Positions 29,582 to 37,164 of a DNA stretch of 64,000 bases are shown here, piece after piece; the first letter of the stretch is position 1; each line of letters opens with the position of its first letter. Origin of the DNA: Rhizobium glycinendophyticum (GTDB lineage: Bacteria; Pseudomonadota; Alphaproteobacteria; Rhizobiales; Rhizobiaceae). The stretch lies in the NCBI RefSeq assembly GCF_006443685.1, contig NZ_VFYP01000001.1:2666001-2730000 (forward strand). The letters run 5' to 3'. Both the position numbers and the translations under genes were made by a program. Under the pieces are notes generated by a model. It ran no database searches, was not told where the DNA came from, and saw nothing but the letters and a program-made list of their open reading frames with translations.

Positions 29582-29600
29582 CCGTGCCAAGCCTTTGAAA

Positions 29601-29640
29601 AGCAAAAGGCCCGATCTAGCCGATCGGGCCTTTTGCTTTG
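29601..29640. terminator. Strong bidirectional intrinsic terminator
   Basis: A perfect 16-bp stem (29601-29616 with 29622-29637) with a five-base loop. It contains a run of A on one arm and T on the other. It lies between the convergent LuxR-type gene and the DUF2333 gene and should stop transcripts from both sides. Confidence 0.9.
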
Positions 29641-29655
29641 AAGAGGAACCTGCCA

Positions 29656-30771
29656 TCAACGATCGAGAATTGCCCGGATCTCTACCATGTTGGAGCGTAC
29701 CCGCAGCGTGTAGAAGCCCATGGTGGTCAGATGGGTTGGCATGATCCAGCCATCTTCGCTGCCATTCGAGATGATCGCCGGCTGGATCTTCAGGGCACCC
29801 TGCAACTGACGATCCATCTCGGCCCAGATGGCAGTGAGGTTGCGCTCACGGATCACATCGCCGAAATCGGCATGGGCAGCTTTCAAGAGCGCATATTGTG
29901 CATAGAGCTGGCCGAAGGCGAACCAGTAGCGGTCGTCGGCGCGGGTATCGAACCAGCCAGCATTGAACTCCTCCGAGCGGCGGCGAAGAATGTCAGAGGT
30001 ATTGCCGAGATCACTTGCCATGCCGTCGAGAAGCTGTAGCAGGTTATCGGCCCGGCTGTCGAAGACGGCATCGCAACTGGCAAGTGACGTGTTGAAGCGG
30101 TTCCAGCTGTCCACGGCTGCGCGATAATAGCTCGGGGTGGGCGTCTTGAAGCCGAAGGGATCGACGCCGAAATACCAGGTGCCTTCGTCAAACTGGATAT
30201 TGCCGCGCGCATTCTGCAGATCGTTGTTGATGCCGGATGTTCCGCGAACGCGGCCAAGGTTGTCGGCAAGCTGGATGGCGGTGCGCCGCACCACCTGATT
30301 CACGCCGCGCTGGAAAGAGGCCTTGTTGTCGAAGAAGGGCGTGTTGTCCCAATCGATGCCGAAGAAGCCGAGCTTGTAGAGAAGCGTCGACGATATCCAG
30401 GTGTTCTGGTTGACATTCTGATCGGTGAGAGCGGCGGCGAGCGTGACGATGGCCGAATCCTGGCAACGATTGGCCTGGTCCGGGATTGCCGCACCCGCAG
30501 GTACCGTTCGCGTGTCGAGCTTGTAGCTCGTCACGAAAGCCGGGTCGAAGCCGTTCCAGATCTGGGTGCGATAGAAGAACTGGCCATAGGCGAGGATCAG
30601 CAGCACGAGGATGCCGAGGATCGGTCCCTTGATGATCCATGTACGGTCGCGGTACCAGCCATGGGCGGCGAGAAACGGCCAGAGCAGCCAGGCAACCACC
30701 AACCCGACGCCGCGGCCGATCGCTGCAAAGACGCGCTGGAAGAACGCGATGATCGGATCAAGCATGGTCAT
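29656..30771 (-). CDS. DUF2333-family membrane-anchored protein
   Basis: 371 residues. An amphipathic/hydrophobic N-terminus (residues 8-32) and a clear membrane helix near 45-65 (IIKGPILGILVLLILAYG) precede a large domain, likely periplasmic, with W/Y-rich motifs such as NTWISSTLLYKLGFFGIDWDN and GTWYFGVDPFG. DUF2333 has no assigned function. An AGGAG precedes the start, which overlaps the previous gene's end by 14 bases, so it is the last gene of the AAA+ operon and probably its membrane anchor. A terminator follows. Confidence 0.8.
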   Translation of the reverse strand: MTMLDPIIAFFQRVFAAIGRGVGLVVAWLLWPFLAAHGWYRDRTWIIKGPILGILVLLILAYGQFFYRTQIWNGFDPAFVTSYKLDTRTVPAGAAIPDQANRCQDSAIVTLAAALTDQNVNQNTWISSTLLYKLGFFGIDWDNTPFFDNKASFQRGVNQVVRRTAIQLADNLGRVRGTSGINNDLQNARGNIQFDEGTWYFGVDPFGFKTPTPSYYRAAVDSWNRFNTSLASCDAVFDSRADNLLQLLDGMASDLGNTSDILRRRSEEFNAGWFDTRADDRYWFAFGQLYAQYALLKAAHADFGDVIRERNLTAIWAEMDRQLQGALKIQPAIISNGSEDGWIMPTHLTTMGFYTLRVRSNMVEIRAILDR

Positions 30772-32053
30772 CTCCTATGCCGTAGAGGCGTCTGCGAAAC
30801 TGGGCCTTGTCCTGCAGATAGGTCTGCGTCAGGCGGGATACAACATAATCGCCATAAGGCGAAGGATAGGACTGGTAGTCGCGGTAGAAACCCTGCTTGT
30901 CGAAGACGAAGCGGGAGACGAAGTCTTCGGGCGTCAGATGCGCAATCAGCCGGTTGGTCAGCCACTGGTCGGCATGCCCCGGCTGGGCACGGACAAGCCA
31001 GTGGCGAAGCCTCGGATCGAAATCGGCAAGGCTGAGCGTGCCGGACCGCGCCAGCATCCGCATCGCCTCCTGCAGGAAAGGATAGACGCCGTGTTCGGCA
31101 ATCGCCCGCCCATGGGTGTGCTGGAACGTCTGCTGCCAGACCACGTCCACCCGCGACAGATCCGGCAGTGGCAGCTGGGCCGCAGCAACCGACAGCAGCA
31201 CCATCTCCGCCCGGTGCGCGAGCAGGCCCGAGGCCTCTACCCAGCTTGCCCGCGGCAGCTCGATGCGGCCGGTGCGGGCGAGAAAATCAAAGATCTGCGC
31301 CCGGTCTTTGATGGAGATATAACTGACCTGCCAAGGCCGCGAGCGCCGGAAACCCGGGGCCTCCGGGTCACAGATCACCGTTGCCTGCTTATCGTCGGTA
31401 AAGACGAAGACGCCGCTGAAATGATCCGCCCAGAAGGCGTCGTGGCGAAAGATCACCTTGTCCGGCACCAGCGTGTTTTGCCGGATGTCGCCGGTCTGGC
31501 GCGATAGCTCGACCATGCGGTTGAGCATTGTATCGCCGCGCCAGGCATCCTGGCTGGTGAGCAACTGATCGCAGAGCTGGCGCAGTTCACCGGCTTTGCC
31601 GAGCAGGTCTTCGGCCGAAAGCACGCGAAATTTCACCTCGTTGATCGACAAGAGGTCTTCAAGCGTCTTCACCTCGGCAACCGAATCCTCGATCTCTCCG
31701 TAAAGCGCATCCTTCAGCGTGATCGCGTGAATGGCGCGGGCATTGGCCGCAAAGAACTCGTGCATCAGGCCGGCCGTATTGGAGAAGCTCGTATGCACGA
31801 CCGGCAGATCATTCTGCTCCGGCGTCAGGATGATAAAACGACGATTGACCTTCTGCGGATCGAGATAGTCGGGGTCACCGAACTCCGTCGCCACCTGCGG
31901 CGAAAACCCGGTGATGTCGATGTCGAATTCGGCAAGCTTGGTTTCCGGCAGGCCGAAGCCTTTGAGCGCCTTGTTGTAACGGGCGATCAGATGCGGCTCG
32001 CGGATGGTGAGGAGGCGACCGTAGATGAGTTCGGCTTCGAGGAGGCGGTTCAT
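30758..32053 (-). CDS. DUF6638-like protein, unknown function
   Basis: 431 residues, no signal peptide and no membrane helix. N-terminus MNRLLEAELIYGRLLTIREP, then a middle region with VFVFTDDKQATVICDPEAPG, and a C-terminal helical part. I recognise no catalytic motif; the length and context fit the family annotated as DUF6638 in rhizobia. Its start overlaps the stop of the upstream XRE antitoxin by four bases and its end overlaps the DUF2333 gene, so translation is coupled on both sides. Confidence 0.65.
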   Translation of the reverse strand: MNRLLEAELIYGRLLTIREPHLIARYNKALKGFGLPETKLAEFDIDITGFSPQVATEFGDPDYLDPQKVNRRFIILTPEQNDLPVVHTSFSNTAGLMHEFFAANARAIHAITLKDALYGEIEDSVAEVKTLEDLLSINEVKFRVLSAEDLLGKAGELRQLCDQLLTSQDAWRGDTMLNRMVELSRQTGDIRQNTLVPDKVIFRHDAFWADHFSGVFVFTDDKQATVICDPEAPGFRRSRPWQVSYISIKDRAQIFDFLARTGRIELPRASWVEASGLLAHRAEMVLLSVAAAQLPLPDLSRVDVVWQQTFQHTHGRAIAEHGVYPFLQEAMRMLARSGTLSLADFDPRLRHWLVRAQPGHADQWLTNRLIAHLTPEDFVSRFVFDKQGFYRDYQSYPSPYGDYVVSRLTQTYLQDKAQFRRRLYGIGDDHA

Positions 32054-32460
32054 GCGGTATCTGCGACCTTCCTGTCCTCGTGCCGCCAGTAAAGGTCGTC
32101 GAGGTCGAGTTTCAAGACATCGGCGATAGCCTTAAGCGTAGCAACACTGCCATCCTTCTTGCCGGTTTCGATTTCTGATAGATAAGCGGTGCTGATTCCG
32201 GCGGCGGCAGCGAGGTCTTTGGCCGCCATACCACGAAAATTGCGCCACACACGGATCGGGCTTTCGCCTTCACTCATACGATTGACGTACTCGGCAGGGA
32301 TCAGTTCTTCCTCGCCGGCCGCAAGCTTGCGTTCGAAATCCGCGATTGTGAGGCTGTCTTCCAAATCCTCGATGCGTTGAATCAGCGCCTCGTAGTTCTT
32401 GCGGCTGAGCACGATCATCTCTTCGCCATCCGGCGCAGTGAATGATGATGCGATCGTCAT
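32050..32460 (-). CDS. XRE-family antitoxin of a RelE-type TA pair
   Basis: 136 residues. The C-terminal half holds a helix-turn-helix: MAAKDLAAAAGISTAYLSEIETGKK followed by TLKAIADVLKLDLDDLYW. The N-terminal half includes MIVLSRKNYEALIQRIEDLEDSL, resembling Phd/YefM-style toxin-binding segments, so this is a two-part antitoxin. It follows the RelE toxin with a one-base overlap, and its stop overlaps the DUF6638 start. Probably autorepresses from the palindrome at 32752. Confidence 0.85.
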   Translation of the reverse strand: MTIASSFTAPDGEEMIVLSRKNYEALIQRIEDLEDSLTIADFERKLAAGEEELIPAEYVNRMSEGESPIRVWRNFRGMAAKDLAAAAGISTAYLSEIETGKKDGSVATLKAIADVLKLDLDDLYWRHEDRKVADTA

Positions 32461-32720
32461 CAGAGTTCTCCCTCATAGGCTTCACCGCGAGCGGCGACAC
32501 GCACCACGTCAACGACGGTTCCGTCTTCACGAAAGATCACCCGCCAGTCACCGACCCGAAGGCGATGATAGCGGCTGTCACGCAACTTCTTGACATTGTT
32601 AGCGAGTGAAGCCGGGTCGGTAGCATACTGGAGAACCTTGGACCGGATACGTCGCGCTTCGTTCGCCGGCATCCGGTTCAAGGTCCGTATGGCATCCTTG
32701 CTGTAGACAATGTCCGGCAC
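32460..32720 (-). CDS. RelE-family toxin
   Basis: 86 residues, an intact small RelE/HigB-type ribosome-dependent mRNA interferase: MPDIVYSKDAIRTLNRMP, then NNVKKLRDSRYHRLRVGDWRVIFREDG, the typical R-x-R-x-G-D-W-R-V-I/V-F core, ending in VVDVVRVAARGEAY. Stop and antitoxin start overlap by one base. It lies inside the AAA+ operon, 51 bases after the ATPase stop. Confidence 0.9.
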   Translation of the reverse strand: MPDIVYSKDAIRTLNRMPANEARRIRSKVLQYATDPASLANNVKKLRDSRYHRLRVGDWRVIFREDGTVVDVVRVAARGEAYEGEL

Positions 32721-32751
32721 ATCCTAATCCTCAACCCCGATCCCGACAACC

Positions 32752-32772
32752 AAATTCGCAAATAGCGAATTT
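32752..32772. promoter_or_regulatory. Palindromic operator of the embedded TA pair
   Basis: An 8-bp perfect inverted repeat, AAATTCGC-N5-GCGAATTT, in the gap between the AAA+ ATPase stop and the toxin start. Its AT-rich arms stand out from the GC-rich surroundings. Position and symmetry fit an autoregulated TA promoter, which would also feed the two downstream genes. Confidence 0.65.
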
Positions 32773-34688
32773 CACCACATCCCCTCCCCCTTCAAGCGCT
32801 CGATCTCCCCGATCGCCCGCTCCCGCTGCCGTTCCCGCCTGACAATCTCCTCCACCGCAGCCTCGTCCGACTTGTCGGCATAGCGGAATTCGCTGTCGGC
32901 GTAGCGGTTGATCTCTTGGCAGATCATCTCCATCGTCACGGGACCACGCAGCTCCGCGATCATCGCCTTCTTCTCGTCGTAGCTCTTGTGGACGAAAGCG
33001 TCAGGCTTTTCGAACCAGGCGTCGGGCAGTTCGACATCCATCGCCCTCATCTTGATCGCATCGGTGATGTTCTTGATCGCACGACCGGTGAATCGCGGCT
33101 CGGCGAGCTTGATCGCATGCAGATAGCCGCCGACATCGGCGAGCGTCTGGATCTTGCCGTTCTCCGTCTCGTAGCGCTCCCAGACGGCCACGAGCCCGTC
33201 CTCCTTTGGCCGGTCGTGCTCGCCATAGGAGCGGCTAACGGCCTTCTGGATCTCCTGGCCGGCAAACAGCTGGTGGTCTCCGAGCGGGATAGAGTGGTTC
33301 TTGCCGACGAGCAGCGAGAAGATGTCGATATAGTCCTCGCGCGTCTGCGGCCCGTCGACCAGCCAGCGGGCGCCGGCGCGCTGGCGCAGCGCATCGTCGA
33401 CATTCTCGGGATAGTTGGAGAACATGCCGAAGGTGGCATTGCCCCGGACCACAGTCGAAGCACCGGCAAAGCTCTCCATCAGCACCGCAGTGACCTCGTG
33501 CTGACCAGATGACGCCCGGTCGTCCGAGCGCTTGGCCGTCACCTGGTCGACATCGTCGATCGTGCCGAAACCGATGACGCGCGGATTGAGCACGTTGTTG
33601 ACGAAGCTCTTGGCATTCTGGCCCGACTTGCCCTGATAGGACGAGATCTGGTCGACGCCGAAATTCTCGTAGTGGAAGGCATAACCCGCCATCTTGCAGT
33701 AGTCGTTCAGGAGACCTGCCAGCATCTGGATCAGGATCGTCTTGCCCGTGCCCGGCATGCCGTCGCCGATGAAGGTGAAGAGGAAGCCGCCGAGCTCGAC
33801 GAAGGGGTTCATCTGCCGGTCGAAATCATAGGCCATCAGCATCTTGGCAAGCTTCAGCGCCTGATACTTGGCGATGTGATTGCCGATGATTTCTTCCGGC
33901 TTCTTGAAGCTCATCGTGAGCGGCTTGGACTTGGCGCTCGGCACGGCGTCGAAACCGTCGAGTGTGAAATCGTCCTGATCGACGCGGATATGGGCGTTCT
34001 CGAAGGCACCGAGATGCTCGAAGCGCGCCTTGCGGGTCAATAGCCCCTGCAGAGCCAGTTCGGCGAAGGCACGGGTGCGGCCGATCACGGTCGCGTCGTC
34101 GCCGGCCCCATGCAGGGCCGCATCCAGCCCGCCGACCAGGCTTTTGAGCGCATCCTGGGCAGTATCGAACAGGAAATCCGGCTCGCGCTGCCCGTCGAGC
34201 TGAGCGCTCTCGCCCGCAATTGTCGACAGCAGATAGGCGGAGAAAGCGAAGGCCGAGATATAGGATGCCGATGCCAGAAGCCCCTTGAACCGCGCAGCCT
34301 CCTCGCCCTGCAAGGGGGCAGTGATATTGCGGGCCTGCAGGCTTTCGAGCTCGGTCTGCCGGGCGAACACATCGGTGACCGCCAGCGCCACCTGTGCTCC
34401 GCGCCGGACACGATAAAGCACCGTGTGCTGGGCAGGCGTCAGGAGCGGATCGCCCTGCCCGCTCGCCTGGATCGTTTTTGTCAGCTCCACCTCGCGGGTC
34501 TTGCGCACGGACCCGGTCGACACCGTCGAAACGAAGCGGCGGCTCGTCCCGGCGAGTGCCGCCCCGTCGCTGCCGCCGCCGCCGGCATCCAGCATGACGA
34601 AGCGCGTGACCAGCCCCTGGGCGACAACGAGATGTTTGGCGATATCCGCCTCGTGCAGCGTGGTGAGCCCGGCCGTCAATTCGCTCAT
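32772..34688 (-). CDS. Classic-clade AAA+ ATPase of an uncharacterised operon
   Basis: 638 residues. The N-terminal ~260 residues are a separate helical domain of unknown fold. The AAA+ module follows: Walker A GDGMPGTGKT (308-317), a pore-loop-like SSYQGKSGQNAKSF with aromatic Tyr351, Walker B VIGFGTIDDVD (371-381) with Asp in place of the usual Asp-Glu order, sensor-1 Asn in FSNYPENVDD (425), and arginine-finger candidates in LRQRAGARW (435-441). The pore-loop tyrosine suggests substrate threading or remodelling by a hexamer. It starts three bases after the upstream gene's stop. It is soluble; no protease domain is attached. Confidence 0.85.
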   Translation of the reverse strand: MSELTAGLTTLHEADIAKHLVVAQGLVTRFVMLDAGGGGSDGAALAGTSRRFVSTVSTGSVRKTREVELTKTIQASGQGDPLLTPAQHTVLYRVRRGAQVALAVTDVFARQTELESLQARNITAPLQGEEAARFKGLLASASYISAFAFSAYLLSTIAGESAQLDGQREPDFLFDTAQDALKSLVGGLDAALHGAGDDATVIGRTRAFAELALQGLLTRKARFEHLGAFENAHIRVDQDDFTLDGFDAVPSAKSKPLTMSFKKPEEIIGNHIAKYQALKLAKMLMAYDFDRQMNPFVELGGFLFTFIGDGMPGTGKTILIQMLAGLLNDYCKMAGYAFHYENFGVDQISSYQGKSGQNAKSFVNNVLNPRVIGFGTIDDVDQVTAKRSDDRASSGQHEVTAVLMESFAGASTVVRGNATFGMFSNYPENVDDALRQRAGARWLVDGPQTREDYIDIFSLLVGKNHSIPLGDHQLFAGQEIQKAVSRSYGEHDRPKEDGLVAVWERYETENGKIQTLADVGGYLHAIKLAEPRFTGRAIKNITDAIKMRAMDVELPDAWFEKPDAFVHKSYDEKKAMIAELRGPVTMEMICQEINRYADSEFRYADKSDEAAVEEIVRRERQRERAIGEIERLKGEGMW

Positions 34689-34691
34689 CTC

Positions 34692-35867
34692 TTAGACCTC
34701 GCTGACGATCTGGTCGCCGGAAATGACGTGAACCTTGTAATTGCCGAAGACGGCGGCCACCTCGCCGGCGGCATAGAGGGCCTGATAGGCGTCATGCGGC
34801 ACCAGCGCGTGTTTCTCGTAAGCCGAAACACCCATGCGCGCGGCCTCGAGATCATGCGTCTCGATATGGAATTCCTGGATCGCCGGCGTCGAGGAGAAAA
34901 AGCCTTTGGTTGCCGGCTGCTCGCGCTTGGAAAACACTTCCTGCACCGTCCAGGTCATCACCCAGGCGTTTTCCGGCTTGCGCACGCGGCTCAGAATCTC
35001 GTTCACCCGGCCCGTGTTCTCGGTGATCCCCGTCGAATAGAGCGGCCCGAGCACGACGCGCCGGATTGATTTCGGATGCAGTGTCGGAAAATCCCGGTCC
35101 AGATTGGTGGCAATCGTTGCGGGTGTCAGCGAGAAGGCCGAGTTCTTGGCGCAGAAATCGTCGAAGCTGCGGGCGAGCTCCGGATTGAGCAGCCCGCCGA
35201 CCGGCAGCGGGATCTCGACCGTCTCGTCGAGCCGGCCATCCGGTGTCACCAGGATCTTCGTCACGCCTTCGGACGAGTCCTCGATGGTCGCGAGATAGAT
35301 CATCGGCAACGTGCTGGTCCCGTCGAAGGCTGCCCAGGAGACGAGGCAACTTGGACGTTTCGTCTGCGGATTGACGCTGACGGCGACCGTGGTCGGCAAC
35401 ACGAAGGGCGAGAACACCTCGCCGGCACTCACCTGCTCCAGATAGAGCCGTTCCGCCATCTGCCGCTGCAGGGCGGCCGGAAACTCTTTCTGCCGCAGGA
35501 TGAAATCGACCATTTCCTCGCGCAGTGCCGGAGCCGCCGGGATCGCCGCCAGCCGCTGGGTCGCGCCCGCCCGGTCGTTTTCCAGCTCCAGCACATTCTG
35601 GTACACCGGAAGGCCGCTTTCCGCCCGCGAGATCCGGAACTGTTCGCTGAAAGCCACCCGGTTGCGCCAGGAGGCAAAGGAATTGCGCAGCCGGTCGAGA
35701 TAGGGCAGCAGGTGCAGCCCCGACGGCCCGTTCTGAAGGATGCGCCGCTCCGGTTGGCCGAAAAACAGCTCAAGCCCGGCGAGCGCCGCCGAGATGGTGG
35801 CGAAATAGGACGTAACGGCGCTGTTGCGATCGATGACGTTCAAGGCTGGCCCCCGAGCCGGTAGCAT
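34692..35867 (-). CDS. Unknown protein of the AAA+ operon
   Basis: 391 residues; I do not recognise it. N-terminal third is helical (TSYFATISAALAGLELFFG, NSFASWRNRVAFSEQF). The C-terminal two thirds are beta-rich, with RPSCLVSWAAFDGTSTLPM, IEDSSEGVTKILVTPDGR and a final VFGNYKVHVISGDQIV. No signal peptide or membrane helix. It starts seven bases after the coiled-coil gene and ends three bases before the ATPase, so it is firmly inside the operon. It could be an adaptor or substrate-recognition partner. Confidence 0.7.
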   Translation of the reverse strand: MLPARGPALNVIDRNSAVTSYFATISAALAGLELFFGQPERRILQNGPSGLHLLPYLDRLRNSFASWRNRVAFSEQFRISRAESGLPVYQNVLELENDRAGATQRLAAIPAAPALREEMVDFILRQKEFPAALQRQMAERLYLEQVSAGEVFSPFVLPTTVAVSVNPQTKRPSCLVSWAAFDGTSTLPMIYLATIEDSSEGVTKILVTPDGRLDETVEIPLPVGGLLNPELARSFDDFCAKNSAFSLTPATIATNLDRDFPTLHPKSIRRVVLGPLYSTGITENTGRVNEILSRVRKPENAWVMTWTVQEVFSKREQPATKGFFSSTPAIQEFHIETHDLEAARMGVSAYEKHALVPHDAYQALYAAGEVAAVFGNYKVHVISGDQIVSEV

Positions 35868-35874
35868 CCCGTCA

Positions 35875-36963
35875 TCACGGCTTCACGTAATTGGCCGCGT
35901 TGTGCTTGTCGAGCACGCCCTGGAAGCGCCGGGCGAAAGCCTCGTCGGCGAGCTTCTTGCGCCGCTGGATGTCCTGCGTCGACAGCATGTTCTTCTCGTG
36001 CAGTTCCAGGAGATCGCCGATATGGCGCTGGGCGGCAGCGCCGATGCCGGCCATGGTCTCTTCCGCGGCGGTGTCGACCTGGCTGCCGAGCGTATTGATC
36101 CGGTGGGCGACCTCCTGCTGGGCGGCGGTCTTCAGCGAATCCTCCAGCGCCTTGTAGAGCACGATGCGCTGCTCGGTATCGATGGTCAGCTTGTTGATCA
36201 GCGTGTTCTGCGCGGCAATCTGGTTGTTGAGGCTGTCGACGAAGGTCTGGAACATCGAGGTATAGCGTTCCAGCGTCTGGCTTTCGGCCAGGAGCTCCTG
36301 TTCGCGGGCCTGGGCCTGATTGTATTCGGTGGCGAGCCTCGAACGTTCGGCTTCGAGATCGGTGCGCTCACCGGTATCGGTGGACGCGGCGATCTTGTTT
36401 TCGATGTCGAGCAGCGCCGGGTTGAGCTGTTCGATGCGCTTCTGGGTTTCCTCCAGATTGGCGATCGTCTGCTTGCGCCGCTCGATCACCTGGATGAGGC
36501 TCGCCTCGGAGCTCTTGTAGCGCTCGTCGAGAACCGATTTCTGCTCCTTCAGGATGCCGACAATGCTGTCGGATTTGGCGAGCAGTTCCTGCAGATTGCC
36601 GGCGAGCGACATGTTGCGCACGCGCTCGGTGCGCATCCGCTGCGCCTTCTGCTTCGAAAAGATGCCGATGAATTTTTCCATGCCGGAAAAGCTCTTCATG
36701 CTCTCGAATTCGGAGCCGAAGACATTGGTCGCGTCCTCCAGCCCGATGATCAGGTCGGCGATATTCGCCTCCATCACCTTCTGCTGGTTGAGGACATCGG
36801 AAATCCGGGCATTCTCGATATCGAAGTTAGGGTCGGTGAGCTTGCTGTCGCTCTTGGCCAGCGTGTCGAGAACGCTGCCCGACTGTTCGATCTTGCCGCG
36901 CATCTCGGCCACGATCTGCCGTGTCTTCTCGATGTCGCTGTCGAAGGATTGCAAAGTCGCCAT
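35875..36963 (-). CDS. Long coiled-coil protein, first gene of the AAA+ operon
   Basis: The start at 36963 (MATLQSFDSDIEKTRQ) has an AGGGGA upstream; a longer open frame is not protein-like. 362 residues, almost entirely helical with heptad patterning: LNQQKVMEANIADLIIGLED, the segment ANLEETQKRIEQLNPALLD, and RSRLATEYNQAQAREQELL. It somewhat resembles TelA-type (toxic anion resistance) helical proteins, but that similarity is only general. No membrane helix. It may scaffold the ATPase or the membrane component. Confidence 0.72.
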   Translation of the reverse strand: MATLQSFDSDIEKTRQIVAEMRGKIEQSGSVLDTLAKSDSKLTDPNFDIENARISDVLNQQKVMEANIADLIIGLEDATNVFGSEFESMKSFSGMEKFIGIFSKQKAQRMRTERVRNMSLAGNLQELLAKSDSIVGILKEQKSVLDERYKSSEASLIQVIERRKQTIANLEETQKRIEQLNPALLDIENKIAASTDTGERTDLEAERSRLATEYNQAQAREQELLAESQTLERYTSMFQTFVDSLNNQIAAQNTLINKLTIDTEQRIVLYKALEDSLKTAAQQEVAHRINTLGSQVDTAAEETMAGIGAAAQRHIGDLLELHEKNMLSTQDIQRRKKLADEAFARRFQGVLDKHNAANYVKP

Positions 36964-37164
36964 GTCGTCCCCTGTCTCTCCTGCCGGCGATCGCCGACCT
37001 CTCCACTGCCAGCATAGCGGGATTCTCACCCGGCGGAAGCGATGCTTCGCACAATGCGCCCGCTCATTCGATATGGATGGCGCGCCGGGCAACACAAGGG
37101 GCTATGGCAGAGAAATGCGACAGCCGTTCCGTGGCTGTCGCAATCCAGGGGCGAACCGCAGCCT

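Follow-up and report, generated by a model that had tools for sequence, protein, structure and literature searches.

The 64,000-nucleotide window analysed here (Rhizobium glycinendophyticum, contig NZ_VFYP01000001.1, positions 2,666,001 to 2,730,000) carries a minus-strand operon whose constant part is a core of four genes, encoding the proteins that we call COIL, P391, AAA and DUF6638. The four genes keep their order in relatives as distant as Vibrio, and among genomes of the window's own family P391, AAA and DUF6638 come and go as one set. AAA carries the motifs of an ATPase motor, the membrane protein encoded next to the core is exchanged between lineages, and where COIL persists without the motor genes it has lost a block at about residues 273–317. 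The set most likely serves to remodel a COIL assembly at the expense of ATP; the fuller proposal, an AAA+ remodelling machine that acts on COIL and is linked to the inner membrane, we hold to be about evenly balanced between right and wrong. The core set appears undescribed: a wider literature search for an uncharacterised AAA operon of this kind returned nothing on it.

35875–36963, minus strand: COIL, 362 aa from the ATG at 36963
36013–36147, minus strand: COIL residues 273–317, putative handle for the AAA subcomplex
34692–35867, minus strand: P391, 391 aa, without an assigned family
32772–34688, minus strand: AAA ATPase (PF00004), 638 aa, with an N-terminal region of ~290 residues
33738–33767, minus strand: Walker A of AAA, GDGMPGTGKT, residues 308–317, by alignment
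33636–33638, minus strand: Y351 of AAA (SYQGKS), presumed pore-loop-1 aromatic, by alignment
33543–33575: Walker B of AAA, D378-D379, by alignment
30758–32053, minus strand: DUF6638 protein (PF20343), 431 aa
29656–30771, minus strand: DUF2333 protein (PF10095), 371 aa, with an N-terminal membrane segment

The first-pass annotation, made from the sequence and its open reading frames, had described five tightly spaced minus-strand genes interrupted by a toxin–antitoxin (TA) pair. All five reading frames are confirmed between 36963 and 29656, as are the gaps of 7 bases (COIL–P391) and 3 bases (P391–AAA) and the 14-base overlap of DUF6638 and DUF2333. The full order is COIL, P391, AAA, ParE toxin, HTH antitoxin, DUF6638, DUF2333, with the TA pair between AAA and DUF6638 and the antitoxin overlapping the start of DUF6638 by 4 bases. 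The mechanical open reading frame call for COIL takes an upstream GTG start and gives 406 aa.

Conservation and co-occurrence of the core genes

Single-sequence searches matched AAA in 5 of 289 genomes of the class, its own included, and DUF6638 in 20 of 299 genomes of the phylum. Twenty loci picked by AAA or DUF6638 matches were fetched from whole genomes, and all 20 have the order COIL-P391-AAA-DUF6638 on one strand; DUF2333 is also present in all eight same-family loci among them. A scan of named genomes with an AAA alignment, of which the best 80 of at least 564 relatives (at least 590 stretches) were kept, gave the order including DUF2333 in 79/79 loci not cut at a contig end, the cut locus (L148) being left out. 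Outside the window's family the core order is kept in 12/12 loci (L026–L037). Plasmid records gave 10 matches, four of them in Vibrio; in both Vibrio megaplasmids examined, genes of 359, 371, 634 (AAA) and 412 (DUF6638) residues stand in the same order and are followed by mfd, with identities to the window of 39% for COIL, 27% for P391, 39% for AAA and 23% for DUF6638. The gene-neighbourhood check that the first-pass annotation had proposed was thus passed.

The conserved order is partly ascertained, because the loci were found through core members. The co-occurrence test, unlike the order counts, is independent of that choice. Each of the four core proteins was searched for by profile in 151 same-family genomes, and the match lists were compared by eye: AAA matched in 88, P391 in 88, DUF6638 in 89 and COIL in 95. 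All four genes are present in 87 of the 151, and P391, AAA and DUF6638 are all absent in 61. Partial sets occur in three genomes only, all incomplete assemblies: G705 lacks P391 and its contig begins inside AAA, G800 (68% complete) has P391 and COIL only, and G833 (83% complete) has DUF6638 only.

Median identities to the window over the 79 named loci are 83% for COIL, 74% for AAA, 67% for P391, 64% for DUF6638 and 61% for DUF2333; by AAA the window is closest to Rhizobium sp. Root274 and AAP43. COIL ranks highest, as would fit a protein that makes contacts over its length. For the family sets we excluded proteins that were more than 60 aa off the window length or whose start or stop was not within the locus, which left 102 rows for COIL, 85 for P391, 89 for AAA, 103 for DUF6638 and 72 for DUF2333, with two Vibrio rows in each of the four core sets. 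No homology was found among the four core proteins.

Loss of a COIL block where the motor genes are missing

Seven loci in three genera (L190–L193 and L244–L246) have COIL beside DUF2333, with no P391, AAA or DUF6638 in the stretch. Six of the genomes (G322, G380, G711, G810, G531 and G829, a subset of the 61 above) are negative for all three proteins over the whole genome; for the seventh, G519 (L192), the genome-wide test covered DUF6638 only. The COIL match in the six is divergent and covers only part of the model, and in the AAA-less COILs model coverage breaks at residues 273–277 and resumes at 296–326. Over residues 273–296 the identity to window COIL is 0.06 with 64% gaps in the seven AAA-less rows, versus 0.56 and no gap in far AAA-bearing relatives (L026, L029 and L156); each of the seven is 25–92% gapped there. 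Residues 297–317 are eroded as well (0.14 versus 0.40). The flanks are kept, with identities of 0.42 versus 0.53 at 246–272 and 0.44 versus 0.44 at 318–347. Among rows from AAA-bearing loci, 273–296 is gap-free in 102/102, and the overlapping stretch 265–288 is the best conserved run of 24 residues (0.86 over 19 diverse rows). We infer that the block at about 273–317 is the contact for an AAA–P391–DUF6638 subcomplex, to which it would bind.

The same co-loss of block and motor genes fits a different role for COIL, that of an adaptor or scaffold and not a substrate, in which residues 273–317 would dock P391 and DUF6638 or the N-terminal region of AAA. COIL is conserved along most of its length, as a scaffold would be, and its persistence without the motor indicates a job of its own. 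We regard this role as possible, yet clearly less probable than that of substrate. The motor would then remodel some other client, for instance a membrane complex reached via DUF2333 or DUF1523. Against this reading, no other constant client gene was seen beside the core, where membrane partners and inserts vary.

The AAA ATPase

The window AAA scores 39.4 bits against PF00004 (E 1e-9; cut-off 21.2), and its median identity to the 12 loci outside the family is 53.6%. Its best match is FIGNL1 (E 0.0012), with AFG2 and i-AAA domains also aligning; the AAA profile matches i-AAA best (E 1e-4), and the Vibrio homologue matches a VCP-like ATPase (E 9e-9), its pore-loop stretch aligning with SKYYGQS. 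In alignments of 12 rows and of five rows including Vibrio, Walker A (GDGxPGTGKT) is invariant apart from residue 311 and Y351 is invariant; we take the latter to be the pore-loop-1 aromatic. The sensor-1 candidate N425 and the arginine-finger candidates R435 and R437, roles that we presume from the alignment and from general knowledge of the family, are kept to Vibrio. The motif assignments of the first-pass annotation hold up, and so does its view of a motor that is not a protease: no protease domain was found in the chain, and AAA-type models are the only ones in Pfam to match with an E of 1 or less. No Pfam match was found for the N-terminal region of ~290 residues.

The best sequence matches place the AAA module near VCP-like ATPase/Cdc48, AFG2, i-AAA and FIGNL1. 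Unlike those ATPases, it has a single AAA domain, no protease domain and a Walker B that ends in D-D, and its scores are far below the NCBIfam cut-offs for CDC48 (17.5 bits versus 802.65) and for proteasome-activating nucleotidase (at most 14.9 bits versus 500 or more).

P391 and DUF6638

P391, which the first-pass annotation had left unrecognised, is still without a family: the window protein reaches no Pfam or NCBIfam cut-off (best Pfam E 0.25), none of nine relatives gives a Pfam match at E 0.05, and a profile search of solved structures gave nothing at E 10. Its C-terminal part may be a domain like that of the T-fold enzymes, which is a weak lead. Structural matches to the helical part (about 81–153) are scattered and were set aside as common arrangements. 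The DUF6638 assignment was borne out, at 234.4 bits against PF20343 (E 3e-69; cut-off 27) for the window protein and 201.6 for the Vibrio protein. The family has no described function in the Pfam records examined, and no paper naming it was found in the literature searches.

If P391 were a subunit binding a small molecule or an enzyme, the set could be a chaperone for the assembly or maturation of an enzyme. This follows the logic of MoxR- and CbbX-like ATPases, and we consider it improbable.

The membrane partner

The DUF2333 protein, likewise correctly named at first pass, scores 71.6 bits against PF10095 (E 7.5e-20; cut-off 22) and has a hydrophobic segment at residues 43–69 with a hydropathy peak of 2.03, so the set does include a membrane-anchored member. 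In the loci outside the family a DUF1523 gene follows DUF6638 in 12/12, as counted with a profile built from six of the same 12, and a small membrane protein is also present downstream in 10/12. The DUF1523 proteins have two hydrophobic segments in all four tested. DUF2333 and DUF1523 share no profile similarity; members of both lie above their Pfam cut-offs, and neither family has a described function in the records examined.

DUF2333 is also spread more widely than the core (68/299 phylum genomes versus 20/299 for DUF6638). Among 17 DUF2333 loci from genomes without a DUF6638 match, 13 have no core protein nearby and four have COIL alone. DUF2333 is replaceable, because DUF1523 stands in its place in the 12 out-of-family loci and neither is annotated by the Vibrio cores; its wider spread, and its retention with COIL in loci that lack the AAA subcomplex, place it outside the constant unit. 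The five-gene unit of the first-pass annotation is thereby reduced to four. Its term "envelope-associated" finds its basis only in these replaceable membrane neighbours, and the window core proteins show no segment above the hydropathy threshold.

The literature searches turned up one paper that names DUF2333 (PMC5256989) and four that name DUF1523. In PMC5256989, DUF2333 is mentioned for a gene close to an orphan hcp gene, and the reading of DUF2333 as a component of the type VI secretion system was dropped.

Proposed mechanism

COIL would build an extended helical assembly, possibly a polymer, tethered to the inner membrane via a lineage-specific protein, DUF2333 in rhizobia or DUF1523 in the 12 out-of-family loci. 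AAA, P391 and DUF6638 would act as one all-or-none subcomplex, with P391 and DUF6638 as adaptors or regulators, and this subcomplex would recognise the C-terminal block of COIL at about residues 273–317. The pore-loop aromatic of AAA, presumably in a hexamer, would then pull on COIL and perhaps thread it, so that the assembly is disassembled or reshaped in the service of some membrane process. What the analysis shows is the gene order, the all-or-none co-occurrence, the conservation of the AAA motifs, the loss of the COIL block where the other three genes are missing and the exchange of the membrane partner; the remodelling function itself is a proposal.

The arrangement resembles Vps4/ESCRT-III of eukaryotes and archaea, with a pore-loop-aromatic AAA, a helical partner, and a C-terminal region in that partner associated with the ATPase. 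The Vps4 side of this comparison is in part general background of the field. The remainder comes from PMC11746142. The two systems differ in that COIL and PspA, the bacterial relative of ESCRT-III, share no profile similarity, and AAA has its Pfam-less N-terminal region and two constant extra partners. Because COIL fails the PspA sequence test, the likeness is one of working principle only. A Proteobacterial counterpart of that principle with a separate origin, in which a non-ESCRT COIL polymer would be disassembled by a dedicated AAA via its C-terminal block, is in our estimate rather unlikely. P391 could then be a tunnel-forming T-fold ring that aids AAA together with DUF6638, and the motor-less lineages would have retained the coiled coil and dropped the grip site.

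PspF/PspA likewise pairs an AAA+ ATPase with a helical membrane-linked protein, which is here a proposal for COIL; PspF is, however, another AAA+ type, and COIL has no PspA profile match. According to PMC11746142, PspF is absent from some organisms that have PspA. A PspA/IM30-family gene does lie downstream of the operon in G528 (L036:5402-6115, minus strand), past an opposite-strand gene that we take to be TetR-like; a search of other operon loci with the PspA profile gave no further one. The TelA family (PF05816) consists of helical proteins of similar size to COIL. As a TelA protein COIL was rejected (hhalign probability 0.2, no hmmsearch hit), and the TelA genes of relatives are located elsewhere; in L118 one TelA-like open reading frame and the operon are about 5 kb apart.

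No described function was found for a machine that is kept in 87 of 151 family genomes and in more distant Proteobacteria. If the proposal is right, it would provide a further, bacterial example in which an AAA motor is devoted to a coiled-coil assembly linked to the membrane. The lineages in which the motor is gone, COIL is kept and the candidate grip site is lost form a natural experiment, and they narrow the target for testing motor–substrate recognition to 45 residues.

Several observations weigh against the proposed machine. The set is not universal: all four core genes are absent from G797, the one genome of the same genus in a survey whose AAA profile search scored at most eight candidates per genome. 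Walker B ends in D-D (D378-D379), not D-E, in 12/12 and 5/5 aligned rows. Active AAA ATPases seldom have Asp at the position of the usual catalytic Glu, and ATP turnover may be slow; as a variation of one motif the change lowers the expectation of canonical catalysis only, and the family match stands. The link to the membrane comes entirely from neighbouring genes, since no segment of the four window core proteins exceeds the hydropathy threshold of 1.6, and the annotation shows neither DUF2333 nor DUF1523 next to the two Vibrio cores examined.

The remaining points concern COIL. Its coiled-coil nature rests on composition, on weak SMC-type hits and on the first-pass view of a long coiled-coil protein; its hydropathy periodicity is weak. 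COIL reaches no Pfam or NCBIfam cut-off (best Pfam E 0.07; best NCBIfam SMC, E 0.02), its relatives gave seven scattered single-member library hits (best E 0.0014), and the profile search of solved structures returned weak coiled-coil hits only, at E 0.03 or worse. As a PspA protein COIL was rejected in a comparison with 11 PspA rows, one of them (L215) a broken fragment (hhalign probability 1.5, no hmmsearch hit). In the AAA-less COILs the C-terminal matches beyond the break have little significance by themselves (E 0.002–1.3), an N-terminal block at 47–80 is also eroded (0.15 versus 0.50, with two of the AAA-less rows trimmed within it), and about 172–229 is missing from two of the seven as well. 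These COILs group in a single clade (97/96) with long branches, which together with the erosion of 47–80 means that the loss of the block may be a single event plus drift.

A recurrent insertion slot between AAA and DUF6638

32753–32771: palindrome AATTCGC-TATTT-GCGAATT, just past the AAA stop
32460–32720, minus strand: ParE-like toxin (PF05016, 34 bits versus cut-off 23), slot cargo
32050–32460, minus strand: HTH antitoxin (PF01381, 41.4 bits versus cut-off 23), slot cargo

The AAA–DUF6638 gap exceeds 280 bases in 61/100 loci, compared with 12/100 for COIL–P391, 5/100 for P391–AAA and 0/88 for DUF6638–DUF2333; the sizes were taken between tblastn match ends, so gaps beside divergent proteins look larger. 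The slot holds a DUF559 nuclease in 30 loci, ParE in 14, HTH in 13 and an RHH antitoxin-like protein in eight, one RHH-bearing locus being also counted for ParE. Over 2.08 Mb of loci, similarity hits to the four cargo reference proteins fall in this gap only. Trees were made from 88 and 75 AAA rows out of the 100 loci; on the AAA tree of the 75 same-family-type rows no fewer than 26 changes of slot state are required, and 35 of the 88 rows have no insert. The window slot (32054–32771) carries ParE/HTH and its two nearest relatives carry DUF559. Since the content changes recurrently and differs between the window and those relatives, the TA pair is replaceable cargo. The first-pass annotation was right that the pair is inserted; in place of a plain insertion, the junction is a recurrent insertion slot.

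With a DUF559 nuclease and ParE/HTH and RHH modules sharing one slot inside the operon, the set might be read as a phage-defence or conflict system with these inserts as effectors. We think this very unlikely, given the 35 rows without an insert and the weakness of the PADLOC matches (AAA to TRIP13, E 0.003; COIL to LmuB, E 0.002, and JetC, E 0.05). PADLOC gave no hit for the remaining core proteins, and the inserted HTH antitoxin matches its HTH models. A ProX-like neighbour is kept in 72 of the 80 named loci and most genomes have a single copy in the AAA search, which suggests vertical inheritance. A phage origin was also rejected: PHROGs gave AAA-type hits only, plus one COIL hit (E 0.029), and viral contigs held no confirmed AAA relative and one COIL, near a contig end.

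The palindrome at the head of the window insert is perhaps a TA operator, as similar palindromes open several other TA inserts. Palindrome halves of another kind, CCTTCTCCCC/GGGGAGAAGG, occur in 17 of 30 DUF559-bearing gaps (e.g. L039, L045, L076 and L077) versus 0 of 21 TA gaps; their density is 1.65 per kb within gaps and 0.016 per kb in the rest of the loci, and presumably they are RIME-like. Among 20 further DUF559 regions, two of which are the slot itself, the palindrome motif was found in four, in three of these as a close pair. Other inserts in the operon are a weak DUF4145/HEPN-like protein below cut-off (L032:8103-8816) and a Fic protein (L042:6803-7633). In L077, L080 and L118, three relatives of the window, an extra gene stands between COIL and P391, which we take to encode an SPFH/Band-7-like membrane protein.

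Operon boundaries and a possible counterpart in Sinorhizobium

37116–37142, minus strand: terminator-like hairpin that follows the cytochrome c gene upstream
29592–29646: strong bidirectional terminator-like hairpin closing the operon, -34.6 kcal/mol, z -5.4

These hairpins bound the operon at both ends, on the cytochrome c side and on the DUF2333 side. That Sinorhizobium meliloti SMc02733 is an operon member is purely a guess from the numbering of the neighbouring choXWV genes. In PMC3687685, a ChvI-bound fragment is listed inside SMc02733.

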